IMG/VR virus record: IMGVR_UViG_3300009180_005351
Coordinates: 1-20,869 of that record
Source of the DNA: a virus
Length of the DNA: 20,869 bases
Strand: one strand, 5' to 3'
Positions 4,471-19,225 of the stretch are shown here, one piece after another. The notes beneath the pieces were generated by a model. It ran no database searches. It worked only from the letters and a program-made list of their open reading frames with translations, and was not told the origin of the DNA. Made by a program: the position numbers and the translations under genes. Position 1 is the first letter of the stretch; every line of letters begins with the position of its first letter.

Positions 4471-5622
4471 TCACTCTCCATGGAGGTTGTCCTGCATGTG
4501 GAATCTCTTGCCGGTGTCCTTGAGATCTCCACTGAGGTAGCGAAGCACATCGCTGGCCATGTCTCGAGCAGTGCAAGTCGGAACATTCTGGGCTATGTGG
4601 TTCAGGTCCCTGAGTGACGTGAACGGGAAATCATGAGGAATTCCCATCATGTGGAGAGTCTCACGGATGGATAGACCGCGATCCTCAAACGGGTGCATGA
4701 GATGCGTCAGGGTACGTCCCACCATTGCGTTCGTGCGGTCGTAGTAGAATCCAGGAGATCCATCCATGAACCTGCCGCCACCAGCGATCTTTGCCTTGAT
4801 CGATTCCAGTCGCCGAATCTCTCGAGAATCAGGGTAGTTGCTCTTCAGGTATTCGAGGCACTGAGAGAGCAAGCCTTTCTCTGCGAGGTAAGTGTACACT
4901 GAGTGGATTGATCCCTCATCGTGTCCCTTCACAAACTCCTGGTGGGTAGTGTTGTGGTGCTTGAGGATGAACTCGTACGAGCGATATTCCTGCGTGGCAG
5001 ACTTCAGCGTGAACTCATTCTGGTTTGCCGCGCCCTCAGGGACCTGCTTGATGTACTCGTGGTATGGAACAGTGTGCCTGTTGAACGTCGACATCTCTGG
5101 ACAATTTCCATCCCGCCAGTAGAAGTAGAACGTCCTGATCCTTCGCTGCGGGATGCCGTGTAGCATCGTGTTTGTACGGTAGACCGAGAAAGAGTAGTCG
5201 TGCTTCTTTGCCAGGTCGTGGAGACCATCGAGGACCTTCTTGCCCGAGTTTGTGAACAGACCAGGCGCGTTCTCTCCAAAGAACACCTTCGGCTTGACCT
5301 GACCGAGGACAACCTCAGCCGACTCAAACATCCACTTGTTCTTGTCGTCACGAGTCTCATCACTTCGGCTGGTGTTCAGCTGGCTTAGGCCAGCGCAAGG
5401 ACAGACGGAGTTCACAAAGTCCAGCTCGCCCTCTGGGATTACACCACCCTCATCAAGGGAGATGCGCGGTACGTCAGGCCAGTAATTCTGGATGTGCTTC
5501 TCATTGTCGGCAAATGCCTTGTAGCTGAGGTGGTACTGAGGCTTATTTCCAGTCGCCAGGCTACAGCCAATCGCGCTGCCTCCGATCAGAGGAATGATGG
5601 TGGACCACTTCGTATCAGACAT
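4471..5622 (-). CDS. C5-cytosine DNA methyltransferase
   Basis: A 383-residue DNA (cytosine-5) methyltransferase that would transfer a methyl group from SAM to cytosine in phage or host DNA. Motif I is a divergent IPLIGGSAIG at 10-19. Motif IV is CPCAGLS at 74-80 with catalytic C76 (usual PCQGFS). Motif VI is ENAPGL at 117-122, and motif VIII is IPQRRIRTF at 157-165. Motif X-like residues lie near the C-terminus (PTCTARD). The middle section, about 180-310, would hold the target-recognition domain and has no obvious match. The start at 5622 has AGGAG six bases upstream and overlaps the end of the preceding pyrophosphorylase-like gene by 8 bases. No restriction partner is visible, so it is probably an orphan enzyme that protects phage DNA or prepares 5-methylcytosine for further oxidation or modification. 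Confidence 0.88.
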   Translation of the reverse strand: MSDTKWSTIIPLIGGSAIGCSLATGNKPQYHLSYKAFADNEKHIQNYWPDVPRISLDEGGVIPEGELDFVNSVCPCAGLSQLNTSRSDETRDDKNKWMFESAEVVLGQVKPKVFFGENAPGLFTNSGKKVLDGLHDLAKKHDYSFSVYRTNTMLHGIPQRRIRTFYFYWRDGNCPEMSTFNRHTVPYHEYIKQVPEGAANQNEFTLKSATQEYRSYEFILKHHNTTHQEFVKGHDEGSIHSVYTYLAEKGLLSQCLEYLKSNYPDSREIRRLESIKAKIAGGGRFMDGSPGFYYDRTNAMVGRTLTHLMHPFEDRGLSIRETLHMMGIPHDFPFTSLRDLNHIAQNVPTCTARDMASDVLRYLSGDLKDTGKRFHMQDNLHGE

Positions 5623-7162
5623 TCTTTCTCCTGTATTTCGATTCGATCTTCTCGATGGTACCACGCTTCACTAGCTCCTGAAGCAGCGCCCACGTCTCCT
5701 TCCAGTTTCCTTCCTGCTTGTACAGCCCAGGGTACCTCGACTCGGCAATCTTTGCGATCGAGTTGTGATCAGAGGCGCCACCGAGCTCATCCAGGATAGA
5801 AAGCAGGTTGGACTCCTTGTCAGTAGCGAGGTAGTCAAGAGACTTATCGACCTGAACCGTCGCCTTGCTCTCTACCTGCTTTACGGGCTTGGGTGCCATG
5901 ATCTGGCGCTTGGCCTTCTTGAGTTCCTTGAGCTGCTTGGCAAAGTCTGGTTGGGCGCTCATCATCAGCTCGCAGTCCTGCTCAAGAGCAACAGGGGCTG
6001 GGGCTGATTCTTTGATCGGCTTTGGCCCAACGCTCTCCTTGGAGATCGGAGCCGCCGCCCTCTTGAGGGCAAGCTTCTTGTTCTCTCGCAGCCTTCGGTA
6101 CACGCCATACTGGCAACAAGAAATCTCACAGCCGAAGTTTGTAAAATAACCAAGCTCTGACACTTCTCGCATGTGCATCTTCGACTCATCTTCATCGCTG
6201 AGCTCAAAGAAGTTGTCTAGATCGCGTCGGATTGCGTTGATGAGCCTGCGGCCAACCTCAGCTGAGATCGAGTGCTCGAGGTCAGCATAGAAGTAGTTGA
6301 CCGTGTCCATCGCCCCGACGCCAGGCACCACGAACTCATCGTCCTCATCGATGTTCCCAGGATTACCCTCTCGGATCAGAGTCCCAACGTCCGGCATGCG
6401 CGCCAAGTTACAGGAGAAGTGATATCCGTAGTAGTTTCCAATCCCTCTGGTGGAGTTCAGAAACTCAAAGGACTGCTTCATGTCTGGCTTGGTCTTGTAG
6501 AAGTTCACAAACTTGGGTCCCATGTAGGTGAACCAGTACAAGATGTCAGACGGACGAGTGGAACGCTCAGCCAGCTCCTGTGGAGTGGTGCCGAGCTTGT
6601 GGTCGATCGGAGTCCCACCGATGCTCCTGGCATAGTTCCTGGCGGCGACCTGGAGGCTTGTGCGAAGCTCGGTCGTTCCGTAGATCTGCTCCTTTGACTT
6701 TGCGGCAGATTCAAGGTTCTCGCAGAGCTGGAGCTGGTAAGCCTTATCGCTAACCAGACGCTCATAGACTATGAAGTCCGCGCCAGTGTTTCGGACCGCA
6801 ATCTTGACTGTGTTCGACGGACCATAGAACTTGACGATGGCAGAGTTGATCAGCCGGTCCTCAAAGGTCGCCTTTGAGTTGTAGTTCAGGTTCTCGTTGA
6901 GCCAGATGATCTCATCGTGGAAGCTACGGTTTGGGTGGAAGTACGGTACGGACTTTCCATCCACCACAAACCCGTAACCGAACTGCGACTCTTCTTCGGG
7001 CTTGTGCCGGAATTCATCGAAAGTCTGAGACTGTGCAAATCGCACAAGGTACTCTCGACGATTCATCTCCTTGATGAACTTGACAAAGTCCTTCTTCTTG
7101 TCTGAGTCGATCAAAGCGATAAGCTCAGCGTCACTGAGCCTCAAGAGCTGGGCATTTGTCAT
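5615..7162 (-). CDS. Helical HMUDK / alpha-glutamyl-putrescinyl-thymine pyrophosphorylase-like protein with C-terminal winged-helix-like tail
   Basis: A 515-residue protein. The central part has the pattern I associate with the helical domain of 5-hydroxymethyluracil DNA kinases and alpha-glutamyl/putrescinyl-thymine pyrophosphorylases. It has a glycosylase-like helix-hairpin segment RGIGNYYGYHFSCNLAR at 239-255, an acidic loop ending in EFVVPGVGAM at 276-285, and a Cys/Tyr-containing closing motif (CEISCCQYGVYRR, 345-357). In known phages these act on hydroxymethyluracil already in DNA during thymine hypermodification. A Pro/Ala/Lys-rich linker (370-445) leads to a 65-residue C-terminal domain (450-515) that looks like a winged helix. 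No P-loop kinase domain is present, unlike classical HMUDK. The start is ATG 7162, one base after the HAD stop; the longer open frame upstream is antisense-like sequence over the HAD gene. Family assignment is by eye and moderate. Confidence 0.55.
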   Translation of the reverse strand: MTNAQLLRLSDAELIALIDSDKKKDFVKFIKEMNRREYLVRFAQSQTFDEFRHKPEEESQFGYGFVVDGKSVPYFHPNRSFHDEIIWLNENLNYNSKATFEDRLINSAIVKFYGPSNTVKIAVRNTGADFIVYERLVSDKAYQLQLCENLESAAKSKEQIYGTTELRTSLQVAARNYARSIGGTPIDHKLGTTPQELAERSTRPSDILYWFTYMGPKFVNFYKTKPDMKQSFEFLNSTRGIGNYYGYHFSCNLARMPDVGTLIREGNPGNIDEDDEFVVPGVGAMDTVNYFYADLEHSISAEVGRRLINAIRRDLDNFFELSDEDESKMHMREVSELGYFTNFGCEISCCQYGVYRRLRENKKLALKRAAAPISKESVGPKPIKESAPAPVALEQDCELMMSAQPDFAKQLKELKKAKRQIMAPKPVKQVESKATVQVDKSLDYLATDKESNLLSILDELGGASDHNSIAKIAESRYPGLYKQEGNWKETWALLQELVKRGTIEKIESKYRRKNV

Positions 7163-7163
7163 C

Positions 7164-7565
7164 TTAGAGGTCCTCGAGGTGACGTCGATTTTCTTTGCCG
7201 ACGAAGGGATTGTTGACGAAGATGACTTTGGTATCGAGATAGTTGGCGTCGATAGCCTTCCGGATCTCTTGGGCCTGGATCTCATCGTCTTCGTAGAAGT
7301 AATCAACTTGGACACCAAGCCTCGCAAGATCGAGGATAGTCTTGGCTTTGTGCTGTCCAGAAGATACTCGAGTCTTTCGTTCATATGGTACCTGGTTGAA
7401 GAAGACCGTGTTGTTGATTCCGTTCCTGCGGAGGAAGGCAAGGGTCTCTGCCTCCTCCTGCTGGCTACGTCCCGTGATGATCACGTCCTGCGGACCTGGG
7501 CGGATGCCACAGACACCATCGCCAAGGTGGATCACGCCATCGATATCAAAGCCATTTACCTTCAT
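7164..7565 (-). CDS. Small HAD-family phosphatase
   Basis: A compact 133-residue HAD-superfamily hydrolase. Motif I is FDIDG with nucleophile D7 and acid D9, motif II is the TGR at 31-33, motif III is probably K73 in QHKAKT, and motif IV is EDD at 92-94. There is no cap domain, which resembles the phosphatase part of polynucleotide kinase and other capless (C0) enzymes that accept large substrates. It could remove a phosphate from a nucleotide, a nucleic acid end or a sugar/inositol phosphate. Its ATG overlaps the TGA of the FkbM methyltransferase (ATGA), and its stop sits one base before the next gene, so it is translated as part of the same block. Because the block includes an inositol-1-phosphate synthase, dephosphorylation of that product is an attractive but unproven role. 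Confidence 0.82.
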   Translation of the reverse strand: MKVNGFDIDGVIHLGDGVCGIRPGPQDVIITGRSQQEEAETLAFLRRNGINNTVFFNQVPYERKTRVSSGQHKAKTILDLARLGVQVDYFYEDDEIQAQEIRKAIDANYLDTKVIFVNNPFVGKENRRHLEDL

Positions 7566-8281
7566 GCAGCCTTCCGCCGGAAGGTGAAGTCAAACACCTT
7601 CTTCTGCTTGAACATCATGATCGGATGCTCGGTGACTTCCCAGAGGACAGGGTCAAAGAACCGTGCGGGGTACTCCTTGAACCTGCCAGATGTCTTGTGG
7701 AACTCAATCGCGACCGTCTCAACAAAGTCGGGAATCTTATCGATGGTGTCAAGCAGGTCGTACTCCTTGCCCTCGATATCGATCTTCAGGACCTGGGGAC
7801 GGTACTGTTCGAGAAGTGCGCTGAAGTTGTGCGAATCGACCTCGACCGAGACATCGCTTGAGTTGCGTCGCTTTGCGGTGGAGGAAGACACCGAGTTCCG
7901 CTGGGAAGTCGCATAGTAGAACGTGCACTTTGGATCGTTGTGCTCGCTGACAGCCGCGTTCAGGTTCAGGGAATTCGGCGAGTTCAGCTGGAGCATCGCA
8001 AAGTTGTCCGGGCACGGCTCAACTGCAATCACCTGCTTTGCCCCAGCATCCACTGCCATTCGAGCAAATCCACCGATGTTTGCGCCAAGATCCATCACGA
8101 CCTTGCCCTTGACATCGATGTCACCGTAGTTTCGCTGGCACTCCTTGATCGAGTTTGGATCGAAGGTGTCGATTCGAATGTAGTAGCCGCTTGGCAACTT
8201 CTTGACCTTGCACTCGACAAAGTCCCGAAGCTTACCATCAAATCGACGACCGACAGGAAGCTCTTGATTCTCAGTGCTCAC
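7562..8281 (-). CDS. FkbM-type SAM-dependent methyltransferase
   Basis: A 239-residue Rossmann methyltransferase of the FkbM family, which usually methylates sugar hydroxyls or small molecules. The SAM-binding motif I is MDLGANIGGFA at 63-73, the ribose-binding acid lies in AVEP at 86-89, and the family hallmark LKIDIEG is at 165-171 with EYDLL just after. The start is a GTG at 8281 inside a GTGA overlap with the stop of the inositol-phosphate synthase gene, with GGAGG four bases upstream. A longer frame to 8392 would run into coding sequence of that gene and is not supported. Its position between inositol-phosphate synthase and a phosphatase suggests that it O-methylates the same sugar or cyclitol product, but the acceptor is unknown. 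Confidence 0.88.
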   Translation of the reverse strand: MSTENQELPVGRRFDGKLRDFVECKVKKLPSGYYIRIDTFDPNSIKECQRNYGDIDVKGKVVMDLGANIGGFARMAVDAGAKQVIAVEPCPDNFAMLQLNSPNSLNLNAAVSEHNDPKCTFYYATSQRNSVSSSTAKRRNSSDVSVEVDSHNFSALLEQYRPQVLKIDIEGKEYDLLDTIDKIPDFVETVAIEFHKTSGRFKEYPARFFDPVLWEVTEHPIMMFKQKKVFDFTFRRKAA

Positions 8282-9483
8282 TTGACCTCCCGATTTCCGG
8301 ACGGCGTGATCGCGTAGAGGTCTTGGGCCTTGTACGGCTTGTTCTGACGCTCGGTGTACCGCGTTAGGCGGCGCTGGGAGAGGGACTCGCACTCGTAAAC
8401 GGTCTCATTCAGGGTGAGTTGCTGGGGAGGCGTCTTCTGGGTGAAGGCGCTCGGACCACGGAGGGCACCGACCAGACCCATCTCACGGGCGACCTTGAGA
8501 TAGCGCACCGCATCGATGACCACGCCAGCCGAGTTCGGAGAGTCGATGACAGAGAGCTGTGCATCGAGGATGACCGGCGCGCCGAGGAAGCCCTCCATCT
8601 CAACGCGGAAGTTTGCCACTTTGTTGTCACCGTAATACCGAATGTACTCGGACGGACCCGCATGGAGGAATGAACCCTCAGGGTTCACGTTGCGGATCAC
8701 GTTCTGTGCACGGATCACGTTCTCCTTCGAGACCTTCTTGTACTTAAGGCGGGACTGGTCGGTCATGTTCAGGAAGTCGGTGTTACCGCCGACATTTCGC
8801 TGGATGTGGCACTTGACCTTGTGACCACGCTCAAAGGCGAGCTCCTGAATCATCTGGCTGAGAATCGAAGCGCCGAACTGCGACTTCATGTCATCACCGA
8901 TGAGGGGAATTCCAGCATCAATAAACTTCTGCTCCCACTCAGGATTCGAAGCAATAAACACCGGAATGCAGTTCAGGAAGGAGACGCGTGCCTTGAGACA
9001 AGCCTCAGCGTAGAACTCAGTCGCCTTCTGGGATCCGACAGGCAGGTAGTTGATGAGGATATCGACCTTGCGATCGACAAGAACCTGGGTGACATCGACC
9101 GGCTTCTCGTCCGAAGCGCGGAAAGCCTCGTCATCAGAGTAGTTCTCCATGACAGAAGCGATGCCGTCGAGGATGGGGCCCATCTGCACGGTGGGACCAG
9201 CCGGAACATTCTTCTCATAGATCGGAGTGCAGTTGGGCTTCGCAAAGATCGCATCACGGAGCGACTTGCCGACCTTTCGCTTGTCGACATCGAATGCCGC
9301 AACAACCTCGACATCTCGAACATTGTAGCCGCCGATGTCGCCCTTCATCAGGCCATCTCGCTCGGCACCGTTCGTGTAGCCGTTGTAGTAGGTGAGGCCC
9401 TGGTAGAGAGAGCTGGCACAGTTGCCAATGCCAACAATCGCAACGCGGATCTTGGCGGTCTCAGGGGTGTTCTTAGCGGACAT
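8278..9483 (-). CDS. ino1: myo-inositol-1-phosphate synthase, actinobacterial type
   Basis: A 401-residue enzyme expected to convert glucose-6-phosphate to 1L-myo-inositol-1-phosphate using bound NAD. The N-terminal NAD loop is VGIGNCASSLYQG at 17-29. Further matches to the mycobacterial enzyme as I remember it are NYLPVGS, PVFIASNP, a GDDMKSQFGA active-site segment, VGGNTDFLNM and SPNSAGVVIDAVRYLK. It is about 35 residues longer than the ~367-residue mycobacterial form, mainly in a C-terminal tail rich in Arg/Gln. I chose ATG 9483 because GGAG lies seven bases upstream; a second ATG at 9495 has no SD. It overlaps the end of the SGNH-like gene by 11 bases. Actinobacteria use inositol for phosphatidylinositol and mycothiol, so a phage copy either boosts that pool or supplies an inositol unit for modification. 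Confidence 0.92.
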   Translation of the reverse strand: MSAKNTPETAKIRVAIVGIGNCASSLYQGLTYYNGYTNGAERDGLMKGDIGGYNVRDVEVVAAFDVDKRKVGKSLRDAIFAKPNCTPIYEKNVPAGPTVQMGPILDGIASVMENYSDDEAFRASDEKPVDVTQVLVDRKVDILINYLPVGSQKATEFYAEACLKARVSFLNCIPVFIASNPEWEQKFIDAGIPLIGDDMKSQFGASILSQMIQELAFERGHKVKCHIQRNVGGNTDFLNMTDQSRLKYKKVSKENVIRAQNVIRNVNPEGSFLHAGPSEYIRYYGDNKVANFRVEMEGFLGAPVILDAQLSVIDSPNSAGVVIDAVRYLKVAREMGLVGALRGPSAFTQKTPPQQLTLNETVYECESLSQRRLTRYTERQNKPYKAQDLYAITPSGNREVK

Positions 9484-10549
9484 TGTTGACTCCATTGTGA
9501 AGACTATTGAACTTGTCGGTTTCGAGATTCCAGCGGTAAGACTGGGGACTCAGGTGAATGCTCTTGGGACGTTCCATGTACTCGAAGTCGAGTTCTCCGT
9601 TGCTGTTGATAAACTTGGCTGGCCAGTGGAAGATGCGCCAACCGTTCTCAGATCCCATCTTATCCTGGGCAGCATTGAATGTTTCGACCAGCTTAGTACG
9701 TTCTGCCCAAGAACCATAGAATGCCGTACCCTTGAAGAGTCCGGTGCCAGGAAGCTTTCGAGACTCATTCTCGATCGGGAGTAAGTTCACCAGCTCAACA
9801 TTCTTGATTCCGAGCTCCTTGACTTGCTGCTCGAGCTCTGTCGCCAAACGCTGGATCTCAGCCAGCCCGTCAGGAGTCCGCATCAGGTGGTGACGGACAT
9901 CGATGTTGCCGAGGTAGATCGTGATGCTGTCAAGGTCAGAGAGCTTGATACCGGAGCGCTCCTCGATCTTCTTACCGAGTCCATCACGGAGAGTGCTGAA
10001 CAGCGTCAGACCATCATTGCGGCAGACCATCTGGCCAGGGTGGTAGGTCGAGAAACTGTGGCTGTCACCAAAGCAGAGGTTCCGAGTACGCTCGACGTGA
10101 TCGAATCGACGAGTGTTCCGGCAGATCTCATCAAGGCGCTCAGGATCCAGCTGCACGACATCCTTGCTGGTGGACTTGTTCGTCCAGCGGCTCTTGACGC
10201 TAGCGCCAATCATAGGCATGTCGTGGTTCATCACAAAGGTCTGGCCCTTGAAGTCCTGGATTCGCTTGAATCGCCAAACGACGTTGTCATCGATACCGAA
10301 GAAGTAGTTGATCGCGCCGCCGTAGGCAATACCGAGCGAGATGATCAGAACGTCGTAACCCTCGTAGGTGTCACGCTGGCCCAGGATCTCTACGTTCTTC
10401 CATCCGGCATTCACCAGCATGTTGCGGTAGAGCTGGACCCAAGCAGAGTTGTGAGAGTGTTTTGCCTTTGGAGTGACGCGCTCTAGACCGTCAATCGCAA
10501 TCTTGGCGTCCTTGGGGACATTGAAATCCGTGAAGAAGCTAGCAGACAT
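9473..10549 (-). CDS. SGNH/GDSL-like hydrolase or transferase, unknown family
   Basis: A 358-residue protein whose C-terminal half (155-340) carries an SGNH-like catalytic set. A GDSHS nucleophile block is at 161-165 (S163 the probable nucleophile), YLGNIDVRHH with N215 may be block III, and SIHLSP with H332 would be block V. The N-terminal 150 residues contain a hydrophobic strand and small loop (VLIISLGIAYGGAI, 67-80) and look like a separate alpha/beta domain I cannot name. SGNH enzymes hydrolyse or transfer acyl groups on sugars, lipids or small molecules. There is no signal peptide, so it should act in the cytoplasm. The ATG shares its A with the dUTPase TAA (TAATG). Next to inositol-phosphate synthase and an FkbM methyltransferase, it may act on the same intermediate. 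The family call is by motif only. Confidence 0.65.
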   Translation of the reverse strand: MSASFFTDFNVPKDAKIAIDGLERVTPKAKHSHNSAWVQLYRNMLVNAGWKNVEILGQRDTYEGYDVLIISLGIAYGGAINYFFGIDDNVVWRFKRIQDFKGQTFVMNHDMPMIGASVKSRWTNKSTSKDVVQLDPERLDEICRNTRRFDHVERTRNLCFGDSHSFSTYHPGQMVCRNDGLTLFSTLRDGLGKKIEERSGIKLSDLDSITIYLGNIDVRHHLMRTPDGLAEIQRLATELEQQVKELGIKNVELVNLLPIENESRKLPGTGLFKGTAFYGSWAERTKLVETFNAAQDKMGSENGWRIFHWPAKFINSNGELDFEYMERPKSIHLSPQSYRWNLETDKFNSLHNGVNNVR

Positions 10550-10983: not shown

Positions 10984-11255
10984 TTGGTCTCCTTCTTGGA
11001 CTGGCGATAGTTGTTCCAGGCGCCGAGGTATGCAGCGGCGTCTAGGAAATTGTCTTCCTTGTAGTTGTAGGAGTGCCGAGAGAACTTGAGCGCGATCAGC
11101 ATCGCAAACATGTCATCAGCATCGAACTGCTTGCCGGTCATGTTGGAGGCAATCGCTGCGGCACGTTCCAGACCCTCACCGATCGGTCCATACTGCCGTT
11201 CCTTCTCTTCAGAGCGATTGTTGATGATTTCGTCAGCAGCCTTAAGAATGTTCAT
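10980..11255 (-). CDS. Small conserved phage protein, DUF6378-like
   Basis: A 91-residue helical protein. The pattern, an N-terminal helix, then a K-E-R-Q-Y-G segment near residue 20, then DADDMFAMLIALKFSRH and an EDNFLDAAAYLGAWNNY C-terminal block, matches my recollection of the small phage DUF6378 family often found near nucleotide genes. No catalytic residues stand out, although the paired acidic residues (DADD, EDNFLD) and the all-helical character recall MazG-type pyrophosphatases. The ATG at 11255 overlaps the TGA of the ThyA-type gene (TGATG), with AGAGGA about seven bases upstream. A longer frame begins at 11357 but would overlap that gene by 100 bases and has no support. A role in the nucleotide pool is a guess from position. 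Confidence 0.7.
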   Translation of the reverse strand: MNILKAADEIINNRSEEKERQYGPIGEGLERAAAIASNMTGKQFDADDMFAMLIALKFSRHSYNYKEDNFLDAAAYLGAWNNYRQSKKETK

Positions 11256-12073
11256 CAGAAGATCCTCTTCATTATGTTCTTGGTCCATTCGTTGATTTCT
11301 TCCTTGGTCAGCTCCCGTCGGGGTAGCTGGAGCATCTCTTCCTCGACAACGGACCACGTGATGTCGTCTCGGAGCTTGAACTTGGTATTGTTTGGAACTG
11401 GCTCATATTCTATCAGCGCTTTCATCATCTCAAAGTGGCGCTGGTAGACGTGGTAGCTTCCAGCGTGGTGAAAGTATTGACCGAGCTCAGCGTTGATTCC
11501 TCGGGCACAAAGCTCATTCAGCATCATCTGCTGGAACATGCTGAAGGTGAACACATCGTTGCAGAATCCATAGACCGCATCGTTCGATCGCATGTTGACT
11601 GCGAGGTGAAGCTTGCCTGCACGGAGGAAGAACTGGATGTACTGCGTGCAGGGATAGTCCTTATCGTTTCCAGACTTGTGGTGCGGTTGATTTATGGCGA
11701 TCGTGGCTCGGCGGGTGTCATTATCTCGAACGATCTCATCGATGACCCACTGCCACTGGGGCTTCAGGTAAGTCCCGTAGTTCGATTCGACTTCGTTCTT
11801 GTCATCTGCGATCTGACGCCAGATCGCTGCCAACTTCCCGATATTTTCCACACTGCGGTTTGCAGAGAGATACCACAGCCACTCAGCGACGGCATACTGC
11901 GGGCTGAACTTACGTGCTGGAGCCGCAATCATCATGTCTGTAGGGTCTTCTATCACGATGCTCGAGCAAAGCCGCTCGATCACTTTCGATCCACGCGTAG
12001 TGACTTCATCACCAAACGTATCTAGTTCTCTAAGCTCGCCGATGAGCGCAAGTTCAAGGTTTCTGTATTTCAT
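11255..12073 (-). CDS. ThyA-family enzyme, probable deoxypyrimidine hydroxymethylase
   Basis: A 272-residue member of the thymidylate synthase fold family. The catalytic Cys142 lies in DYPCTQYIQF (139-148) and the phosphate/base segment is NMRSNDAVYGFCND (160-173). In E. coli thymidylate synthase the matching segment ends in GLPFN, where the Asn pairs with uracil. Here D173 occupies that place, as it does in T4 dCMP hydroxymethylase (GFRND), which is also the better match around MRSND. HHAGSYHVY at 202-210 is the second nucleotide-binding motif. I infer that it hydroxymethylates dCMP or dUMP instead of methylating dUMP, a view helped by the separate ThyX gene. ATG 12073 is preferred over 12079 because AGGA lies seven bases upstream. 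It follows the polymerase gene by 35 bases. Confidence 0.82.
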   Translation of the reverse strand: MKYRNLELALIGELRELDTFGDEVTTRGSKVIERLCSSIVIEDPTDMMIAAPARKFSPQYAVAEWLWYLSANRSVENIGKLAAIWRQIADDKNEVESNYGTYLKPQWQWVIDEIVRDNDTRRATIAINQPHHKSGNDKDYPCTQYIQFFLRAGKLHLAVNMRSNDAVYGFCNDVFTFSMFQQMMLNELCARGINAELGQYFHHAGSYHVYQRHFEMMKALIEYEPVPNNTKFKLRDDITWSVVEEEMLQLPRRELTKEEINEWTKNIMKRIF

Positions 12074-12108
12074 GGGCATATCCTACTTGGGATTGGTGGG
12101 AAGTACAG

Positions 12109-15100
12109 TCACTTTTCGATGTTTATGACCTTGAGCTTCTGCCACCGAGTCGACATTCCAAAGTCGCCCTTCTCAACTTCTGCGGCTGCAAATGTGAACC
12201 GGTTCAGAGAACTTCCAGCCGCGGCACCCCAGCAGAACATCTTGTGGACCTTTCCTGAGTTCGCCATGCATTCAAGCAAGAGGTAAGGCTTCTTGTTCTT
12301 CGTGAGTTTCGGGATCGCATTTACGATCATGAACCAGTAGATGTCATGTCGGTCGCAGTCATCGATGGACCTGACGTCTTTCTCCTGGAGCCACTTGGAG
12401 ACCTTCTCAGGAATCGCAGATTCGATGTTGAACGATCCGAGGAGTTCTCGGTCGAACTCCATCGTGGTCTGCATGCCCCACTCACCTGCATCAGTCGAGT
12501 CCGCAAGGAGTTCCTTGAGCTTATTCTTACCGAAGAGCGGCTCCTTCTTTGTACGCTTCTTCAGCTGGTCAGCAGATCCAATCACAATATCATGCATCTG
12601 GCGGTATGAGCTGAAGGTCTTTCCCTCACCAACCATGTCCATCGACCCAAATGCTCGGATCTTGATCAGTGACTCCAGCGCCTTCTTGTTGAACTTACTG
12701 TGACGCCACGTGCCATCTTCATTCCAGAGGAGGTCATCAATGCTCTTGTACGGTCGCATTTCAAGAATCTCATCGATCGCCGTGGCACCAACTCCCTTGC
12801 ATGACAGGAAAGAGGGCATGAGCTTGTAGTCACCGATCGCAGCCCAGGACTTCTTCGCGTAGTTGATATCGATCGGAACGATCTTGTAGCCGAGGCTCTT
12901 GACTTCAGAGATCGCCTTCGGTGCCTTCTTGGAACCTGCGGTAGCCTCGAGGTAGGCGATCAGCCACTCCTGCTCATAGTAAGTCATGAGCCACGCACAG
13001 TAGTACGAGTTCATGGCATAGGACACCGCGTGGGACTTGTTGAAGCCGTATCCAGAGAAGTAGCAGATGTTCTCATAGAGCTTATCTGCCGTCCGCTCAT
13101 CGATGCCATTGGCCATCGATCCCTTGACAAACTTCTCTTTGAGAGCCTTGGCCTTCTCAACATTTTCATTGCCAGACCCGACAGGCTTCATCATCTTTCG
13201 AATCTTGTTACATTCAGCCTTCGGGAATCCAGCCACCACGTGGCAAAGTTCCATGACCTGTTCCTGGAAGATGATACATCCGTAGGTCTCTTCCAGGACC
13301 TGCTTGATGAGAGGATGACCGTACTGGACGGTGTCAGGCTCGCTCTTCGACTTGATGAAGAGCTTATCAACCTTTGCACCCAGCGGACCAGGACGGTAGA
13401 TCGAGGTGAGCGTGGCGAGGTCAATCACGTTCACCGGCTTGGCGGCCATGAACAGTTGTTGAGCGCCGCGATTCGTACACTGGAAGATGCCAGCCCATCG
13501 CCCAGAGTGATAGACATAGTCGTACACCTTCTGGTCGTCGAAGTCGATCACCTTCGGTGCCATGTTCTTATCGAACCAGTCCCTGACATCTGAGAACTTG
13601 ATATCGGTCTTTCCCTCCTTCTCAAGGATCAGGGCAATAGTCCGCTCGATCATTCGAAGAGTACCGAGACCGAGGAGGTCAAACTTGACCCAACCGAACT
13701 CTTCGAGGTGCTTGTAGTTCATGCCCTCAACCCAGGGAGTCTGGTGCTCGCCCTTTGCCATGATCAGCGGCATACGCTCACCAATCCGCTCTGAGACGAT
13801 GACACCACCTGCGTGGCGACCAAGAGCCTTATTCTGCTTGAAGAGGACTTGCAGGGGGTCCATGATGTCAGGATGAGATTCGAGGAAGTCCCGAGTCGAC
13901 TTGGAGTACTTCATCGCATCTTCAAGCGTGATGTCAAACCCCTCATCGGCATCTTCATCAACCTTGGCACCTTCCGCGACATCACGCTCGAGGCTAGCCA
14001 GAGCTCGATTCACCTCTTCGAACTCGATTCCGTAGAACCGGCTTACGTCCTTGATGAGACTCTTGAGCTTGAACGTGTTGTAGTTCGAGATCGGGACAAT
14101 GTTTTCCTTGCCAAACTTGTCGCGCATCAGGTGGATGAGCGCATCTCGATCACTGATGTCCGAGTCAATGTCCGGATACTCTGCGCGGTCAATCGAGAGG
14201 AATCTCTCAAAGAGGAGACCGTACTCGACAGGATCTACGTCAGTCACATATAGTACGTAGTTCACCAAGCTTCCGGCACCGGAGCCACGTCCAGGACCGA
14301 CCAACATGTGGTCTCGGGCAAGATCGATGATAGCCTTCATCGTCAGGAAGTACTCGCTGAAGTTCTTCTCCTTGATGATCTGGAGCTCATACTTCAGGCG
14401 CTCGATGTACTCAGGCTTCTGGTGGAGACCACGCTTCACCAAGCCTTCTTTGCAGACATCCAACAGAGCCTTTGCCGCCGTCTTACCTTCAGGAATGACA
14501 TAAGTCGGGAGCTTCATGGAAGTATCGGGCTTCACCTCTCCAACGATGTCATGGGCAATGAAGTGAGTGCGCTCAATCGCATCGATCACGACATCATCAT
14601 CGTAGAAGGTGTACCCGTTCTTCACCTGCTGGTAGGTCTCCCAAACCTGGTTCGCATTCTTCGGGTAGAGCTCGCACTTGAGATCATCGCGGGACTTCGG
14701 GAGAGAATCAGGATTGATCTCAGTGTGGTTGAGCCAGCCAAGCTTCTTGTAGATCTCCCGCTCACGCCAGTGCTCAGGTCGTGAATAGTGGGAATCGCAG
14801 GTGACCACAAGATGCTGAGACATCGAGTTCTTCTTAGCGAACTCAATGATAGCGCGGTTCACAAGGTGTTGGGCAGGAAGCTTGTTGAATTGAAGCTCGA
14901 GGAAGGTGTTCTCAACTCCGACGGCATCTACAAGCTGGTCTACCGTATTTCCGATCTCCCGCATCACCTTTTCGGCGAGGTCGCCGTTATCGAGTATGTG
15001 CGCATCAAGGTCGTTGAAGCCGTACTTCTGTAGCTCCTGGAACACAGAGTAGGCGATCGGACCACCAATGCAGGCGGTGGAGACGAGGAGGTCACCTTTT

Positions 15101-15672
15101 GCAGCCTGCTTGAGCATCTTGTAGTCGATTCGAGGGAATCGGTAGAAACCCTCAGAGTAACCACGGGAGACGAGGTGGAACAGCTTCTGGAGTCCAGAGG
15201 AGTTCTTGGGAAGAACGACAAGGTGGTGGCGCCGCTTCACCGGATCGAAGAACTTGGAAGACTTGGTCTCATCCTCGTTCTCAACGGTCAGGCTGGCACC
15301 CTCAGACTCGACATTCGTGGTCTCATCATCGCCATCCACGGTCGCAACCAGCTTCTTCTCCAGCTGGAGCTCAGGAAGCTTCCCCTCCTTTGAGAGGGTG
15401 TACTGGCGGCTCCACTCGCTGAGATCGGGATGCACATACATCTCACAGCCAGGGATGAACTTGAAGTGCTTGCCAGCCTTGTGCATCTTCTCGGCGTGGA
15501 GATAAGCATGGGCAAAGCCATTCATCTGGCCGTGGTCCGTTAGCGACCAGCCATCGAGGCCATTCTCAACACAGAAGTCAATGTGCTCCTGCGGATATCC
15601 AAGCCCATCGAACGTGGAGAATCCAGAGTGAGAATGGAGACCGAAGAACTTGGTTGGAGTTCGATTTTGCAT
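12109..15672 (-). CDS. dnaE: DNA polymerase III alpha subunit (DnaE-type, family C)
   Basis: A 1187-residue family C replicative polymerase, full length compared with bacterial DnaE (about 1160-1190). The N-terminal PHP domain starts with FGLHSHSGFSTFDG (10-23) and may hold metal-dependent proofreading activity. The palm has GPGRGSGAGS and, around residue 500, PDIDSDISD with the catalytic aspartates. Fingers and later motifs include LGRHAGGVIVS (about 615), IFQEQVM and GYGFNKSHAVSYA. A C-terminal OB-like domain follows (MIVNAIPKLTKNKKPYLLL). No separate DnaQ exonuclease is seen in this window. The ATG has AGGAAG five bases upstream and lies only about 20 bases from an extended -10 promoter. 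It starts the long operon that ends in the modification genes, so replication and modification are probably made together. Confidence 0.97.
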   Translation of the reverse strand: MQNRTPTKFFGLHSHSGFSTFDGLGYPQEHIDFCVENGLDGWSLTDHGQMNGFAHAYLHAEKMHKAGKHFKFIPGCEMYVHPDLSEWSRQYTLSKEGKLPELQLEKKLVATVDGDDETTNVESEGASLTVENEDETKSSKFFDPVKRRHHLVVLPKNSSGLQKLFHLVSRGYSEGFYRFPRIDYKMLKQAAKGDLLVSTACIGGPIAYSVFQELQKYGFNDLDAHILDNGDLAEKVMREIGNTVDQLVDAVGVENTFLELQFNKLPAQHLVNRAIIEFAKKNSMSQHLVVTCDSHYSRPEHWREREIYKKLGWLNHTEINPDSLPKSRDDLKCELYPKNANQVWETYQQVKNGYTFYDDDVVIDAIERTHFIAHDIVGEVKPDTSMKLPTYVIPEGKTAAKALLDVCKEGLVKRGLHQKPEYIERLKYELQIIKEKNFSEYFLTMKAIIDLARDHMLVGPGRGSGAGSLVNYVLYVTDVDPVEYGLLFERFLSIDRAEYPDIDSDISDRDALIHLMRDKFGKENIVPISNYNTFKLKSLIKDVSRFYGIEFEEVNRALASLERDVAEGAKVDEDADEGFDITLEDAMKYSKSTRDFLESHPDIMDPLQVLFKQNKALGRHAGGVIVSERIGERMPLIMAKGEHQTPWVEGMNYKHLEEFGWVKFDLLGLGTLRMIERTIALILEKEGKTDIKFSDVRDWFDKNMAPKVIDFDDQKVYDYVYHSGRWAGIFQCTNRGAQQLFMAAKPVNVIDLATLTSIYRPGPLGAKVDKLFIKSKSEPDTVQYGHPLIKQVLEETYGCIIFQEQVMELCHVVAGFPKAECNKIRKMMKPVGSGNENVEKAKALKEKFVKGSMANGIDERTADKLYENICYFSGYGFNKSHAVSYAMNSYYCAWLMTYYEQEWLIAYLEATAGSKKAPKAISEVKSLGYKIVPIDINYAKKSWAAIGDYKLMPSFLSCKGVGATAIDEILEMRPYKSIDDLLWNEDGTWRHSKFNKKALESLIKIRAFGSMDMVGEGKTFSSYRQMHDIVIGSADQLKKRTKKEPLFGKNKLKELLADSTDAGEWGMQTTMEFDRELLGSFNIESAIPEKVSKWLQEKDVRSIDDCDRHDIYWFMIVNAIPKLTKNKKPYLLLECMANSGKVHKMFCWGAAAGSSLNRFTFAAAEVEKGDFGMSTRWQKLKVINIEK

Positions 15673-16327: not shown

Positions 16328-17128
16328 TCACGTTTGAACTTGTGGACACCAGTGCGTGGTTCGACCGTCGGGAGTCTCCTCGCGGACAACCTTGTTCCCG
16401 TGCATGTCGGTCTCCCTACTATAAACAAGGAACCTGGAAGAGTATTCGCCAACTTCTCCGTTCAGATCAGAGTAGCTCTTGATGGTCGCGCCACCAGACT
16501 GGTAGCTGGCGCGGATCACCTTCTTGATCGAAGAGTTCAGCGTTGAGAGCTCCATGTTCGACAAGTGACAGACCTTGCGGTGCGGGCTGATCTTCGCAAG
16601 CCATAGCGAGTCCGCCTTGAGATAGTTCCCGACTCCAGAAATCACTGACTGGCTCATGATCGCTTCGCACACTGTCTTGTTCTTCATCTTCATGAGCCGG
16701 TCACTGAACACGTTGTCCGGGACATCCTCATAGAGCATATCGGGACCAAGAGTGTCAAGCTTCTTGACCGTCTCCTCCTTTCCCTGGACGATCTTGAACG
16801 TGCCAAAGTTCCTGGCATCAGTGAAGTACAGAACATCGCCGTCCTGGAACTCGATCATCACCCGGGCATGGGAGCTGCGCTCGGTCTTCCAGCTGCCCGA
16901 CATTCCCAGTGTGTTCCAGATGAACTGGTCGCCTTCAAGGGCGGCAAAGATGAACTTTCCCTTCACGCCCCAGCCTTCGACCTTTGCCGGTAGGGTGACG
17001 CTCGACAAACCCTCGATTGGCTTCTTCAGATATCGACCGCTGAGCGGTGTGATCGCCGTGATGATTTTTCCAGTGCTGAACTTTGCCAGATTATCAGTGA
17101 TCCGGCGGCACTCAGGTCCTTCAGGAAT
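16328..17128 (-). CDS. Fpg/Nei-family DNA glycosylase with an ATT start and zincless finger
   Basis: A 266-residue bifunctional glycosylase/AP lyase that removes oxidised bases. Activity needs the N-terminal proline after Met removal. The conserved PEGPE comes directly after an ATT codon at 17128, and AAGGAGGTG, a near-perfect SD, sits six bases before that ATT. The only upstream ATG (17152) would add eight residues and bury the proline, so I call ATT as the start. Other features: E3, K58 in VKGKFIF, MSGSW at 76-80, the helix-two-turn-helix with N168 (SGVGNYLKADSLW), and a finger ending in DGRTTHWCPQVQ. The finger keeps the conserved Arg256 but has one Cys instead of four, so it is a zincless form as in NEIL1-like enzymes. 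It overlaps the MBD4-like gene by 8 bases. Confidence 0.9.
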   Translation of the reverse strand: MPEGPECRRITDNLAKFSTGKIITAITPLSGRYLKKPIEGLSSVTLPAKVEGWGVKGKFIFAALEGDQFIWNTLGMSGSWKTERSSHARVMIEFQDGDVLYFTDARNFGTFKIVQGKEETVKKLDTLGPDMLYEDVPDNVFSDRLMKMKNKTVCEAIMSQSVISGVGNYLKADSLWLAKISPHRKVCHLSNMELSTLNSSIKKVIRASYQSGGATIKSYSDLNGEVGEYSSRFLVYSRETDMHGNKVVREETPDGRTTHWCPQVQT

Positions 17129-17546
17129 GGTACACCTCCTTAAGCCAGTCATGGTACAGATTCAATGCGTGGTCTCTTGGTTCTACTTGCTGCCAGTCTC
17201 CAACCACAAAGATGCGGTAGGCATCATCCGCATACTTCCCGCAACCGTGCAGGTCCTTTGCGGTCTTCCACTTGCCGGCGAGGTACTCAGAGGAGAACCT
17301 GATCAGCGTAGAGGTGCGCTTCTTGGACATACCCAGCGACTTGATGATCTCTTCGAGGTCAGCTGGATTTGCGCAGGACATCGATGCCGCATCAGGGTAC
17401 TTCTGAAAGAGCTCAGGCAGCACAGCCCTGACCTGCCTGTTTGTGGTGAGGTTCAAGAGAAGGCAGCACACTAGGATCTTCCAGGTGTCACCAAAGTAGG
17501 GCTCTTGGACCAGATTGTGAGGGGACTTAGGTGGTTGCCACGCCAT
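17121..17546 (-). CDS. MBD4-like HhH-GPD mismatch DNA glycosylase
   Basis: A 141-residue helix-hairpin-helix glycosylase that looks like the catalytic domain of vertebrate MBD4 on its own. Matches to MBD4 as I recall it include LLNLTTN at 30-36, the run LGMSKKRTSTLIRFSSEYL at 71-89, the hairpin DLHGCGKYADDAYRIF at 98-113 (MBD4: LHGIGKYGNDSYRIF), and VEPRDHALNLYHDWL at 121-135, where D125 is the catalytic Asp. MBD4 removes T, U or 5-hydroxymethyluracil opposite G. No iron-sulfur cysteines are present, in contrast with MutY/Nth types. No SD precedes the ATG; a TATTCT lies six bases upstream, which could give a leaderless message. It is translationally linked to the Fpg/Nei gene through an 8-base overlap. 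Confidence 0.85.
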   Translation of the reverse strand: MAWQPPKSPHNLVQEPYFGDTWKILVCCLLLNLTTNRQVRAVLPELFQKYPDAASMSCANPADLEEIIKSLGMSKKRTSTLIRFSSEYLAGKWKTAKDLHGCGKYADDAYRIFVVGDWQQVEPRDHALNLYHDWLKEVYHS

Positions 17547-17932: not shown

Positions 17933-18619
17933 CTATACTCTGGACTCGGAGTATGACCTAACACTGACTGGCCAGAACTGCGCGGCAATATCTCTGCACG
18001 CTTCTGCAACCTTCTGGATCTCCCACTGCGCTCCCTCATGAGTTCGAAGGTCAATAAACCTGAGCAAGTTGTTCAGATTACAAGTCCCATAGTACTCAGT
18101 GTAGAGGTTCATGGGAAGAACACCACGAGCCTGCTCGCGACAAACTCCGGCCTCCATCAGCTCGTGGTACAAATTCAAGGACTCATTGTGGAATACCTTG
18201 ATTGCATCAGAGGCCGCGCGACCATAGCTAGCAACATGCGAGTTCACTAGGTTGTCAGTATTGCTAGCCTGCCTGTTGCTCTTGTGCTGCGTCCTGAACA
18301 TGTTCGGCTCATAGAACTCGAGATTCTCATCCGTGTATCGACGAGAGATCTCGTTGTAGGACCAGGTACGGTGACGGTGGTGCTGGGACCTGACGAACAA
18401 CGGGACCTTGAACCTGAAGGTGATCACGTTGTGCTCAAGAGTGGAAGTGTGTCGATGCTCCATCAGGTACTTGATCAGCTTGGAGTCCTTCTCGTCCAGC
18501 TCATCCTTCTGCTTTCCAAAGGAAACCCTGGCGGAGTTGACGACCGTCAGGTCAGTGCCCATGTGTTGGACATACTCCACGCATCCAATTCCGTCACCGT
18601 ACAGCTCGATCCTATTCAT
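17933..18619 (-). CDS. thyX: Flavin-dependent thymidylate synthase ThyX
   Basis: A 228-residue ThyX that methylates dUMP to dTMP using FAD, NADPH and methylene-tetrahydrofolate. The signature RHRTWSYNEISRRY is at 82-95 (family RHRx7S with the adjacent NExSRRY block). HTSTLEHN at about 57-64 and the later REQARGVLP segment, with the Arg that contacts dUMP, are also present. The length is normal for phage ThyX. The ATG follows the ClpP-like stop by three bases, with GAGG further upstream. The window also has a ThyA-fold enzyme; with ThyX covering dTMP, that second enzyme is free to be a hydroxymethylase. Confidence 0.96.
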   Translation of the reverse strand: MNRIELYGDGIGCVEYVQHMGTDLTVVNSARVSFGKQKDELDEKDSKLIKYLMEHRHTSTLEHNVITFRFKVPLFVRSQHHRHRTWSYNEISRRYTDENLEFYEPNMFRTQHKSNRQASNTDNLVNSHVASYGRAASDAIKVFHNESLNLYHELMEAGVCREQARGVLPMNLYTEYYGTCNLNNLLRFIDLRTHEGAQWEIQKVAEACRDIAAQFWPVSVRSYSESRV

Positions 18620-18622
18620 GCT

Positions 18623-19225
18623 CTACTCGACCTCGATATTGACGTCCACGCTCACGGTGAGCTTCGGGATGCGGAGGTGATTGGCAAGGTTGTGCTTCTT
18701 CGCCTCAGTGGCATCGAGGTACCAGTCAGCATGACCACGCTCGTGGACGATCTTCAGGAAGTAGTCGTCCGGCTTGCCACAGTTGCGGGCCATCATCTCA
18801 TAGACCTTGCGGTTGAGGCGCTCGACCTCCTTGGCGTCAGACTTGATCTCCTCGACCTTGCCCCAGGCTCCGCTGGAGACGTCGTGGATCATCACGGTGC
18901 CGTTTGCATCCATGTAACGCATGCCCTCAGCACCAAAGCTGAAGAGGATTGCGCCGCAGGACATCGCCTTTCCCTCAACGATCGTGGCAACAGGGAGCTC
19001 AGATCCCTGGATTGCAGAGATCATCGACATGAGGGAGTAGACCTGCCCTCCGTAGCTGTCGATCACGACAGGAATCACCTTCTGCCCAGTGGAGTGGGCC
19101 TTTGCCATGGCGATCTGGAATTCCTTGGCGGACTCCTCGTCGAACTTATTGACTCGGACGATAACAGGTAGGCTGCGCAGCTCACAGTCCTTGATTAGCG
19201 GGCTGACATTCGTCTTCCAGATCAT
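18623..19225 (-). CDS. ClpP-like serine protease (S14)
   Basis: A 200-residue protein with the ClpP fold. Family landmarks are VVIDSYGGQVYS at 53-64 (oxyanion GG loop), the nucleophile elbow GKAMSCGAILFSFG with S89, VMIHDV with H114, and DWYLDATEAKKHNLANHL with D167, completing a Ser-His-Asp triad. ClpP usually has ASMGA at the nucleophile, here MSCGA. In phages such proteins act as capsid maturation proteases or as stand-alone ClpP homologues that may join or disturb host Clp. Here it sits between ribonucleotide reductase and ThyX with no capsid or portal genes nearby, so a capsid role is not supported. AGGAG lies five bases before the ATG. Confidence 0.88.
   Translation of the reverse strand: MIWKTNVSPLIKDCELRSLPVIVRVNKFDEESAKEFQIAMAKAHSTGQKVIPVVIDSYGGQVYSLMSMISAIQGSELPVATIVEGKAMSCGAILFSFGAEGMRYMDANGTVMIHDVSSGAWGKVEEIKSDAKEVERLNRKVYEMMARNCGKPDDYFLKIVHERGHADWYLDATEAKKHNLANHLRIPKLTVSVDVNIEVE

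Follow-up and report, generated by a model that had tools for sequence, protein, structure and literature searches.

The locus described here raises the question of what a phage does with a relative of a thymine-hypermodification protein when the genes around it are of another kind. It lies on a viral contig (IMG/VR record IMGVR_UViG_3300009180_005351), all 20,869 nucleotides of which were analyzed and are called the window below, and in which a gene at 5615..7162 on the minus strand encodes a 515-residue helical protein resembling HMUDK_hel, as identified by open reading frame (ORF) translation, Pfam, PHROG and profile-profile comparison. Our answer, in which we place modest confidence, somewhat on the favorable side, is that this gene belongs to a cassette for cytosine hypermodification coupled to replication, which would place inositol or methyl-inositol on 5-hydroxymethylcytosine (hmC) by means of the helical protein acting as a pair with an SGNH-fold protein.

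The plus-strand translation of 5615-7162 is riddled with stops and the minus strand is open, with an ATG at 7162, so that a first-pass annotation of this DNA had the coordinates right, while the strand is to be read as minus. All the motifs that it singled out are present, namely RGIGNYYGYHFSCNLAR at residues 239-255, EFVVPGVGAM and CEISCCQYGVYRR. When the window protein is compared with Pfam HMUDK_hel (PF18723), the match lies under the 25-bit cut-off (4e-4, 20.3 bits); the same model is matched by all 30 aligned relatives (best 1.1e-10) and, above the cut-off, in 15 of the 16 genomes with any match. A profile-profile comparison (hhalign) of the helical family with the HMUDK_hel proteins of phages M6, ViI and phiW-14 found the two families related (E 1.5e-5 over 247 columns), which bears out the kinship to the HMUDK helical domain that the annotation had proposed. 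The fold agrees, in that BFVD pairs the protein with the HMUDK_hel protein of a Nodularia phage (E 1.6e-3, prob 1.00, TMt 0.59), and both by profile and by fold the protein is a member of HMUDK_hel. Its core shares 43-62% identity with proteins of independent viral contigs, which excludes chance resemblance, and its closest PHROG is 17781, a protein of Aeromonas phages 44RR and 31 (3.4e-93). Sequence searches of the PDB with the window protein or the family profile gave zero matches, and a collection with a single genome per species, covering 84,980 species of bacteria and archaea, yielded eight pattern matches and no true relative. Weak Pfam matches to DUF612, dDENN, COG2_N and CLP_protease were dismissed as chance. 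Judged from sequence, the helical protein is a DNA-base-handling protein, kin of part of the machinery with which phages decorate thymine.

The kinase that the annotation reported missing is indeed absent from the polypeptide, within which no P-loop family of Pfam was matched. This is not the new architecture that was suggested, since phage M6 already encodes its P-loop kinase (gp054, PF18748) and its helical protein (gp055, 323 residues, spanned end to end by the PF18723 model) in two genes; for a helical protein to lack the kinase is therefore nothing unusual. The 5-hydroxymethyldeoxyuridine (5-hmdU) kinase PF18748 is also absent from 15 cassette contigs (up to 293 kb; possibly partial) and from the complete genome of 44RR, in a search that recovered the kinase in M6 and ViI. 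Likewise, the amino acid:DNA transferase (ADDT) model PF18724, which recovered the transferase in phage Cr30, found no match in the protein, its relatives or the 15 cassette contigs, and hhalign of the helical family against the Cr30 ADDT gave an E of 0.42. The label "aGPT-pyrophosphorylase-like" of the first-pass annotation is not supported by these results, and kinship to aGPT-PPlase/ADDT was dropped, having neither profile nor profile-profile support.

The identity of the starting base can be approached through the thymidylate synthase (TS) homologue of the window (11255..12079, minus strand). In alignment it carries catalytic Cys144, Asp175 and the pattern MRSND...ND, residues by which it would be a dCMP hydroxymethylase. 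An Asp at the position of TS Asn177 selects cytosine, and each of the 12 aligned phages that bear the cassette or the fusion has it there. In 44RR, gp42, annotated as dCMP hydroxymethylase, has the same MRSND...ND pattern, whereas the canonical TS of 44RR reads QRSVD...PFN, and gp42 has been reported in 44RR-type phages (PMC2771037). A separate ThyX thymidylate synthase (17933..18619, minus strand, from family search) can make thymidylate, which leaves the TS homologue available for something else. Because this homologue is of the dCMP type, we take the base to be hydroxymethylcytosine; on these residues, 5-hydroxymethylcytosine rather than hydroxymethyluracil is most likely the starting base, and the thymine hypermodification that the first-pass annotation had in mind would give way to cytosine. 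The thymine pathway could be retained if the protein acted on 5-hmdU with a kinase and an amino-acid transferase encoded elsewhere in the genome, as HMUDK_hel homology would allow; given that neither PF18748 nor PF18724 occurs in the 15 cassette contigs or in complete 44RR, and that the TS homologues have the dCMP-type Asp, we consider this highly improbable. As the principal interpretation, the thymine pathway was rejected on the TS residues and on gene content (no kinase or ADDT).

The gene keeps much the same company from locus to locus. A profile-based scan for the helical family found 58 viral loci, 57 once the 44RR entry is left out, and on these 57 viral contigs the helical gene has near it a myo-inositol-3-phosphate synthase (Ino1) in 57, an SGNH gene in 56, a HAD gene in 54 and an FkbM gene in 46; the sole locus lacking SGNH is cut at the contig edge. 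In the reverse direction, a search from Ino1 gave 73 further loci with SGNH in 67, HAD in 66 and the helical gene in 51, many of the misses being contigs that end close by. Searches of whole records found Ino1 in every one of the 15 cassette contigs, but not in 44RR, 25, PTm1, M6 or ViI. The first-pass annotation had missed both the cassette and the SGNH partner. In the window, Ino1 lies at 8278..9495 on the minus strand (Pfam 6e-21); it matches NCBIfam INO1 at 1.3e-104 and 350 bits, under the 638-bit equivalog cut-off, and is homologous over its full length to M. tuberculosis INO1 (1gr0; 8.9e-94 over 351 residues). Beside it on the same strand are an FkbM-type O-methyltransferase (7562..8392, from family search), whose start is uncertain and whose ORF overlaps Ino1, and a small HAD phosphatase resembling PNK phosphatase (7164..7565), with its DxDG, T, K and EDD motifs kept. 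At another cassette locus, L054, a nucleoside 2-deoxyribosyltransferase-like gene (9153-9623) stands between Ino1 and HAD.

The SGNH/GDSL-fold partner is encoded at 9473..10549 on the minus strand and was assigned by model, structure alignment and conserved residues (S163, N215, H332). Its structural model (predicted local distance difference test, pLDDT, 89) aligns with SGNH/GDSL esterases at Z 12-14; S163 and H332 are invariant, N215 is nearly so, and the GNID motif is kept. By fold and by Ser, Asn and His it belongs to the SGNH superfamily, with the Asp of the DxxH motif absent, and active-site residues are kept in the SGNH and HAD proteins of the cassettes. A single polypeptide of about 800 residues (795 aa in 44RR and 31) unites the SGNH and helical domains in 19 records of Aeromonas phages, 44RR and 31 among them. 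By analogy with the pairing of kinase and helical protein in the thymine pathway, we infer that SGNH would be the catalytic partner of the helical protein.

The AlphaFold2 model of the helical protein (mean pLDDT 85) shows a core, a linker and a C-terminal domain. The conserved helical core (residues 1-376, ending ..RAxAPISKE; 6035..7162, minus strand) has a pLDDT mostly >90; when 30 relatives are aligned, 89 of the columns are invariant, among them a dense block of polar residues (HPNRSFHDE, GTTELR, CEIxCCQ). By alignment and profile comparison, its G-I-G motif (residues 239-256, RGIGNYYGYHFSCNLARM; 6395..6448, minus strand) is the counterpart of GWGPFMAYEV in M6, and may be helix-hairpin-helix-like. 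Among the rows listed, the only whole-domain matches of the core are the DUF2419/Qng1 structures 7u07 and 7u5a (Z 9.1-9.2, 221-231 residues, root-mean-square deviation (rmsd) ~6 A, 9-10% identity), a likeness of predicted folds that is suggestive only, since at this Z helical folds may match by arrangement alone. Foldseek of the full model against the PDB gave no E <0.001, with winged helix-turn-helix matches dominant. The core is followed by a flexible Pro/Ala/Lys-rich linker (residues 377-446; 5825..6034, minus strand) with low pLDDT, which falls below 50 at 381-404 and 422-446 and marks these stretches as disordered, and then, in the window's clade only, by a winged-helix domain (residues 447-515; 5618..5824, minus strand; from AlphaFold2 and structure alignment). 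This predicted domain aligns with the winged helices of MecI/BlaI at Z ~10 and rmsd 1.4-2 A over ~65 residues, so that the winged-helix tail behind a Pro/Ala linker, as first described, stands as a predicted fold. Other relatives stop at the core and a short tag. That the winged helix binds DNA is a reasonable but putative reading of the model.

These short tags would connect the cassette to replication. The SGNH and helical proteins end in a short hydrophobic peptide that is specific to the lineage and resembles the C-terminus of DNA polymerase B (PolB) of the same phage. In a first lineage PolB ends in TLDSFF, TLDDWF or TLEGFFS, the helical protein in SLESFFG or STIEGFFL and SGNH in NLESFF; in a second the three ends are YSTSLF, KSSCLF and TINTLF, and in a third NSIVQF, KQIIQF and NKIVTF. 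In 44RR, polymerase gp43B ends in NNLFDMFDI and the fusion in CSLDGLFAI. In L065 the polymerase is without such an end and the SGNH and helical proteins are likewise untagged, as are, throughout, Ino1, HAD and the dCMP hydroxymethylase. The comparison covers four tagged and two untagged lineages and is a pattern, not a statistic. In T4, the C-terminus of gp43 is a clamp-binding epitope that is interchangeable between proteins (PMC2988020), and from the likeness of their ends we infer that the tagged SGNH and helical proteins would bind the sliding clamp. A gp45-like clamp was detected in 3 of 4 contigs of group B, below the family cut-off, as is the annotated gp45 of 44RR; no bacterial beta clamp was found in 16 records. 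The window's clade has neither polymerase B nor tags, and it alone has the winged helix, together with a bacterial-type polymerase III; the winged helix may thus replace clamp tethering there. Polymerase-like tags are also found on several of the C5-methyltransferase homologues of group B (L051 7298-8479, L052 7260-8417, L054 13202-14413 and L058 12656-13795; for example STKTLEEFF and AKTIVDFFA), which is odd if all C is hmC. In L047, a methyltransferase of another family at the FkbM position (9235-10005) carries the tag NGIITF, which is common to the polymerase, SGNH and helical protein of that locus.

The roles within the pair could also be reversed: in the same pathway, the helical protein would be the catalyst (a transferase or glycosylase-like enzyme) and SGNH an esterase or acyltransferase editing the added group before or after transfer. 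The dense invariant polar block of the core, its alignment with the fold of a DUF2419 queuosine hydrolase, and the fact that solved SGNH neighbors are mostly esterases speak for this division, while the fusion and common tag favor a joint step on DNA without being decisive; we regard this exchange of roles as unlikely, yet as a serious contender.

It could further be argued that the cassette has nothing to do with DNA, with inositol serving lipid, glycan or stress metabolism and the helical protein a chance neighbor. Ino1 can serve in the absence of the helical protein, as it does in phages Moby and Cr30. The linkage in 57 of 57 contigs, the SGNH fusion, the polymerase-like tags and the homology to a DNA-modification family all run counter to this, as does the position of Cr30 Ino1 beside ADDT and a TAGT-like gene, and we judge it about as improbable as the thymine pathway. 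The Cr30 locus (L010 9726-14251), in which Ino1 and a HAD-like gene adjoin these two genes, is a different DNA-modification setting for inositol synthesis. In Stenotrophomonas phage Moby (L009 11998-15690), Ino1 and a HAD-like gene lie beside QueC, a queuine tRNA-ribosyltransferase-like gene and QueE, which suggests that genes for deazaguanine modification of DNA are also among the companions of Ino1.

The fusion-bearing phages offer a view of the substrate from another side. In 44RR, AS4 and L9-6 the gene immediately upstream of the fusion encodes a vSGLT-like Na+ symporter, and homologues of this symporter (81-100% identity) occur in exactly the 19 fusion-bearing records; in complete 44RR, Ino1 is absent and the symporter takes the synthase's place. 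It looks as if import replaces synthesis of the small-molecule substrate in phages of the 44RR type. The residues that we take to form the core sugar site of vSGLT are largely kept in the 44RR symporter, and do not tell hexose from inositol. The group on hmC may be something other than inositol, with the SGNH/helical pair attaching or trimming another sugar-derived group and with Ino1 and HAD making a related cyclitol or supplying a different intermediate. Its support comes from the symporter, which resembles the galactose carrier vSGLT and keeps these core binding residues, from the pairing of SGNH with UDP-galactopyranose mutase in Aeromonas phage 25, and from the inclusion of a five-membered-cyclitol-phosphate synthase (6k96) in the Ino1 family. 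Set against this, the window Ino1 scores 318 bits to M. tuberculosis INO1 and 179 bits to 6k96, and Ino1 is linked to the helical gene in 57 of 57 cases outside the 44RR type. We think this alternative rather unlikely, a little more so than the exchange of roles. The phage 25 locus (L008 3731-7002) has a stand-alone SGNH, the mutase and an unknown 358-aa protein, and is possibly a galactofuranose variant of hmC decoration.

The inositol pathway that we favor would proceed in three steps. First, the dCMP-hydroxymethylase-type enzyme (11255-12079) would make hm-dCMP, by which 5-hydroxymethylcytosine enters DNA. Second, Ino1 would convert glucose-6-phosphate to inositol-3-phosphate, HAD would strip the phosphate and FkbM might add O-methyl to the cyclitol; phages of the 44RR type would instead take up a solute that makes all of these steps dispensable. 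Third, the helical protein, with a fold suggestive of glycosylase-like enzymes, would bind DNA and flip out hmC, and SGNH, as fusion or operon partner, would act at the 5-CH2OH and install the cyclitol. Both DNA-acting proteins would be tethered to the sliding clamp by the polymerase-like C-terminal peptide in most lineages, and in the window's clade, with its polymerase III, the winged helix would stand in for this tether.

Several points weigh against this pathway. Its chemistry is a prediction, and the window phage itself is represented by one 20.9-kb contig. Inositol lacks an anomeric carbon, and the analysis identified neither a nucleotidyltransferase nor a kinase for donor activation, which is the weakest point of the proposal. 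Of known transporters, the galactose carrier vSGLT is the nearest to the symporter of 44RR, whose ligand is undecidable from sequence; the SGNH of phage 25 occurs without the helical protein or Ino1, beside UDP-galactopyranose mutase, and in Moby and Cr30 there is an Ino1 but no member of the helical family. Several partial contigs yielded no gene of the TS family, and signs of a T4-type clamp, all below the family cut-off, were confined to group B and 44RR. The full picture, of phage DNA bearing myo-inositol or O-methyl-inositol on 5-hydroxymethylcytosine through an SGNH and HMUDK_hel pair riding the replication clamp, is therefore put forward tentatively, with the balance tipping slightly the other way. 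Inositol and glucose are both C6H12O6, and inositol-5-hydroxymethyldeoxycytidine (inositol-hmdC; ~419.15 Da) would be isobaric with glucosyl-hmdC, for which it could have been mistaken; in a literature search, itself incomplete, no account of phage DNA with inositol turned up.

The helical gene sits inside a dense minus-strand gene run in the window. The first part of the run holds a dCMP deaminase, a DHH phosphoesterase, a cupin, a thymidine kinase, an epimerase and a C5-cytosine DNA methyltransferase homologue (4471..5664, minus strand, from family search), which is untagged and overlaps the helical gene that follows. In the middle are the small HAD, FkbM, Ino1 and SGNH genes, a dUTPase, a DUF6378 gene and the TS homologue, and in the last part bacterial-type DNA polymerase III alpha (12109..15672, minus strand, from family search), two DNA glycosylase-like genes, ThyX, a phage-encoded ClpP-like protease gene (18623-19225) and a ribonucleotide-reductase-like ORF. 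The Fpg-like (16328-17152) and HhH-GPD (17121-17546) glycosylase genes overlap and are a base-repair pair in a phage whose DNA is probably modified. The cupin-like protein (2507-2899) matches PHROG 7851 (cysteine dioxygenase), and in Cr30 an annotated cysteine dioxygenase lies 3-4 kb from Ino1.

The systems closest to this cassette each share a part of it. The HMUDK_hel proteins M6 gp055, ViI 130c and that of phiW-14 are, like the helical protein, stand-alone, with near whole-domain homology and G-x-G and CE..KY-type motifs; they occur with a P-loop 5-hmdU kinase and ADDT, whereas the window type has SGNH, Ino1 and a cytosine-type hydroxymethylase. The C-terminal half of PHROG 17781 (44RR/31, 795 aa) is homologous to the window protein (43% identity, 3.4e-93), and differs in being fused to SGNH, in having a symporter instead of Ino1 and in ending in a polymerase-like tag instead of the window's winged helix. 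Glucosyl- and arabinosyl-hmC in T4 and RB69 exemplify post-replicative hmC decoration in T4-like phages, as proposed for the cassette; these phages use sugar-nucleotide glycosyltransferases (PMC6024577), in contrast to a cyclitol synthase and an SGNH/helical pair, and a T4 beta-glucosyltransferase hidden Markov model gave no matches anywhere, a search without positive control and hence uninformative. Phage S-B43 hypermodifies cytosine by the CmoX/CmoY carboxymethylcytosine pathway with a C5-methyltransferase homologue (PMC12783734), and such a homologue also adjoins the window helical gene; the S-B43 pathway requires CmoA and an amide ligase, neither of which was seen in the window. The queuosine salvage enzyme DUF2419 (Qng1), with which the predicted core fold aligns, has an RNA-derived substrate and 9-10% identity. 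Post-replicative decoration of hmC by phages is known, and this gene set and its predicted group are not, as far as checked.

If the proposal is true, a polyol ring, neither glycosyl nor amino acid, would be a new class of group among the anti-restriction and anti-CRISPR DNA modifications of phages, and a role would emerge for the inositol-phosphate synthases that at least 483 viral stretches encode. HMUDK_hel would acquire a second type of partner, and the domain would prove to serve base handling in general instead of being an accessory of the kinase, within a system whose modifying enzymes are predicted to travel with the replication clamp. Two of the Aeromonas phages, 44RR2.8t and phage 31, have long been known and are in culture, so that the prediction is directly testable.

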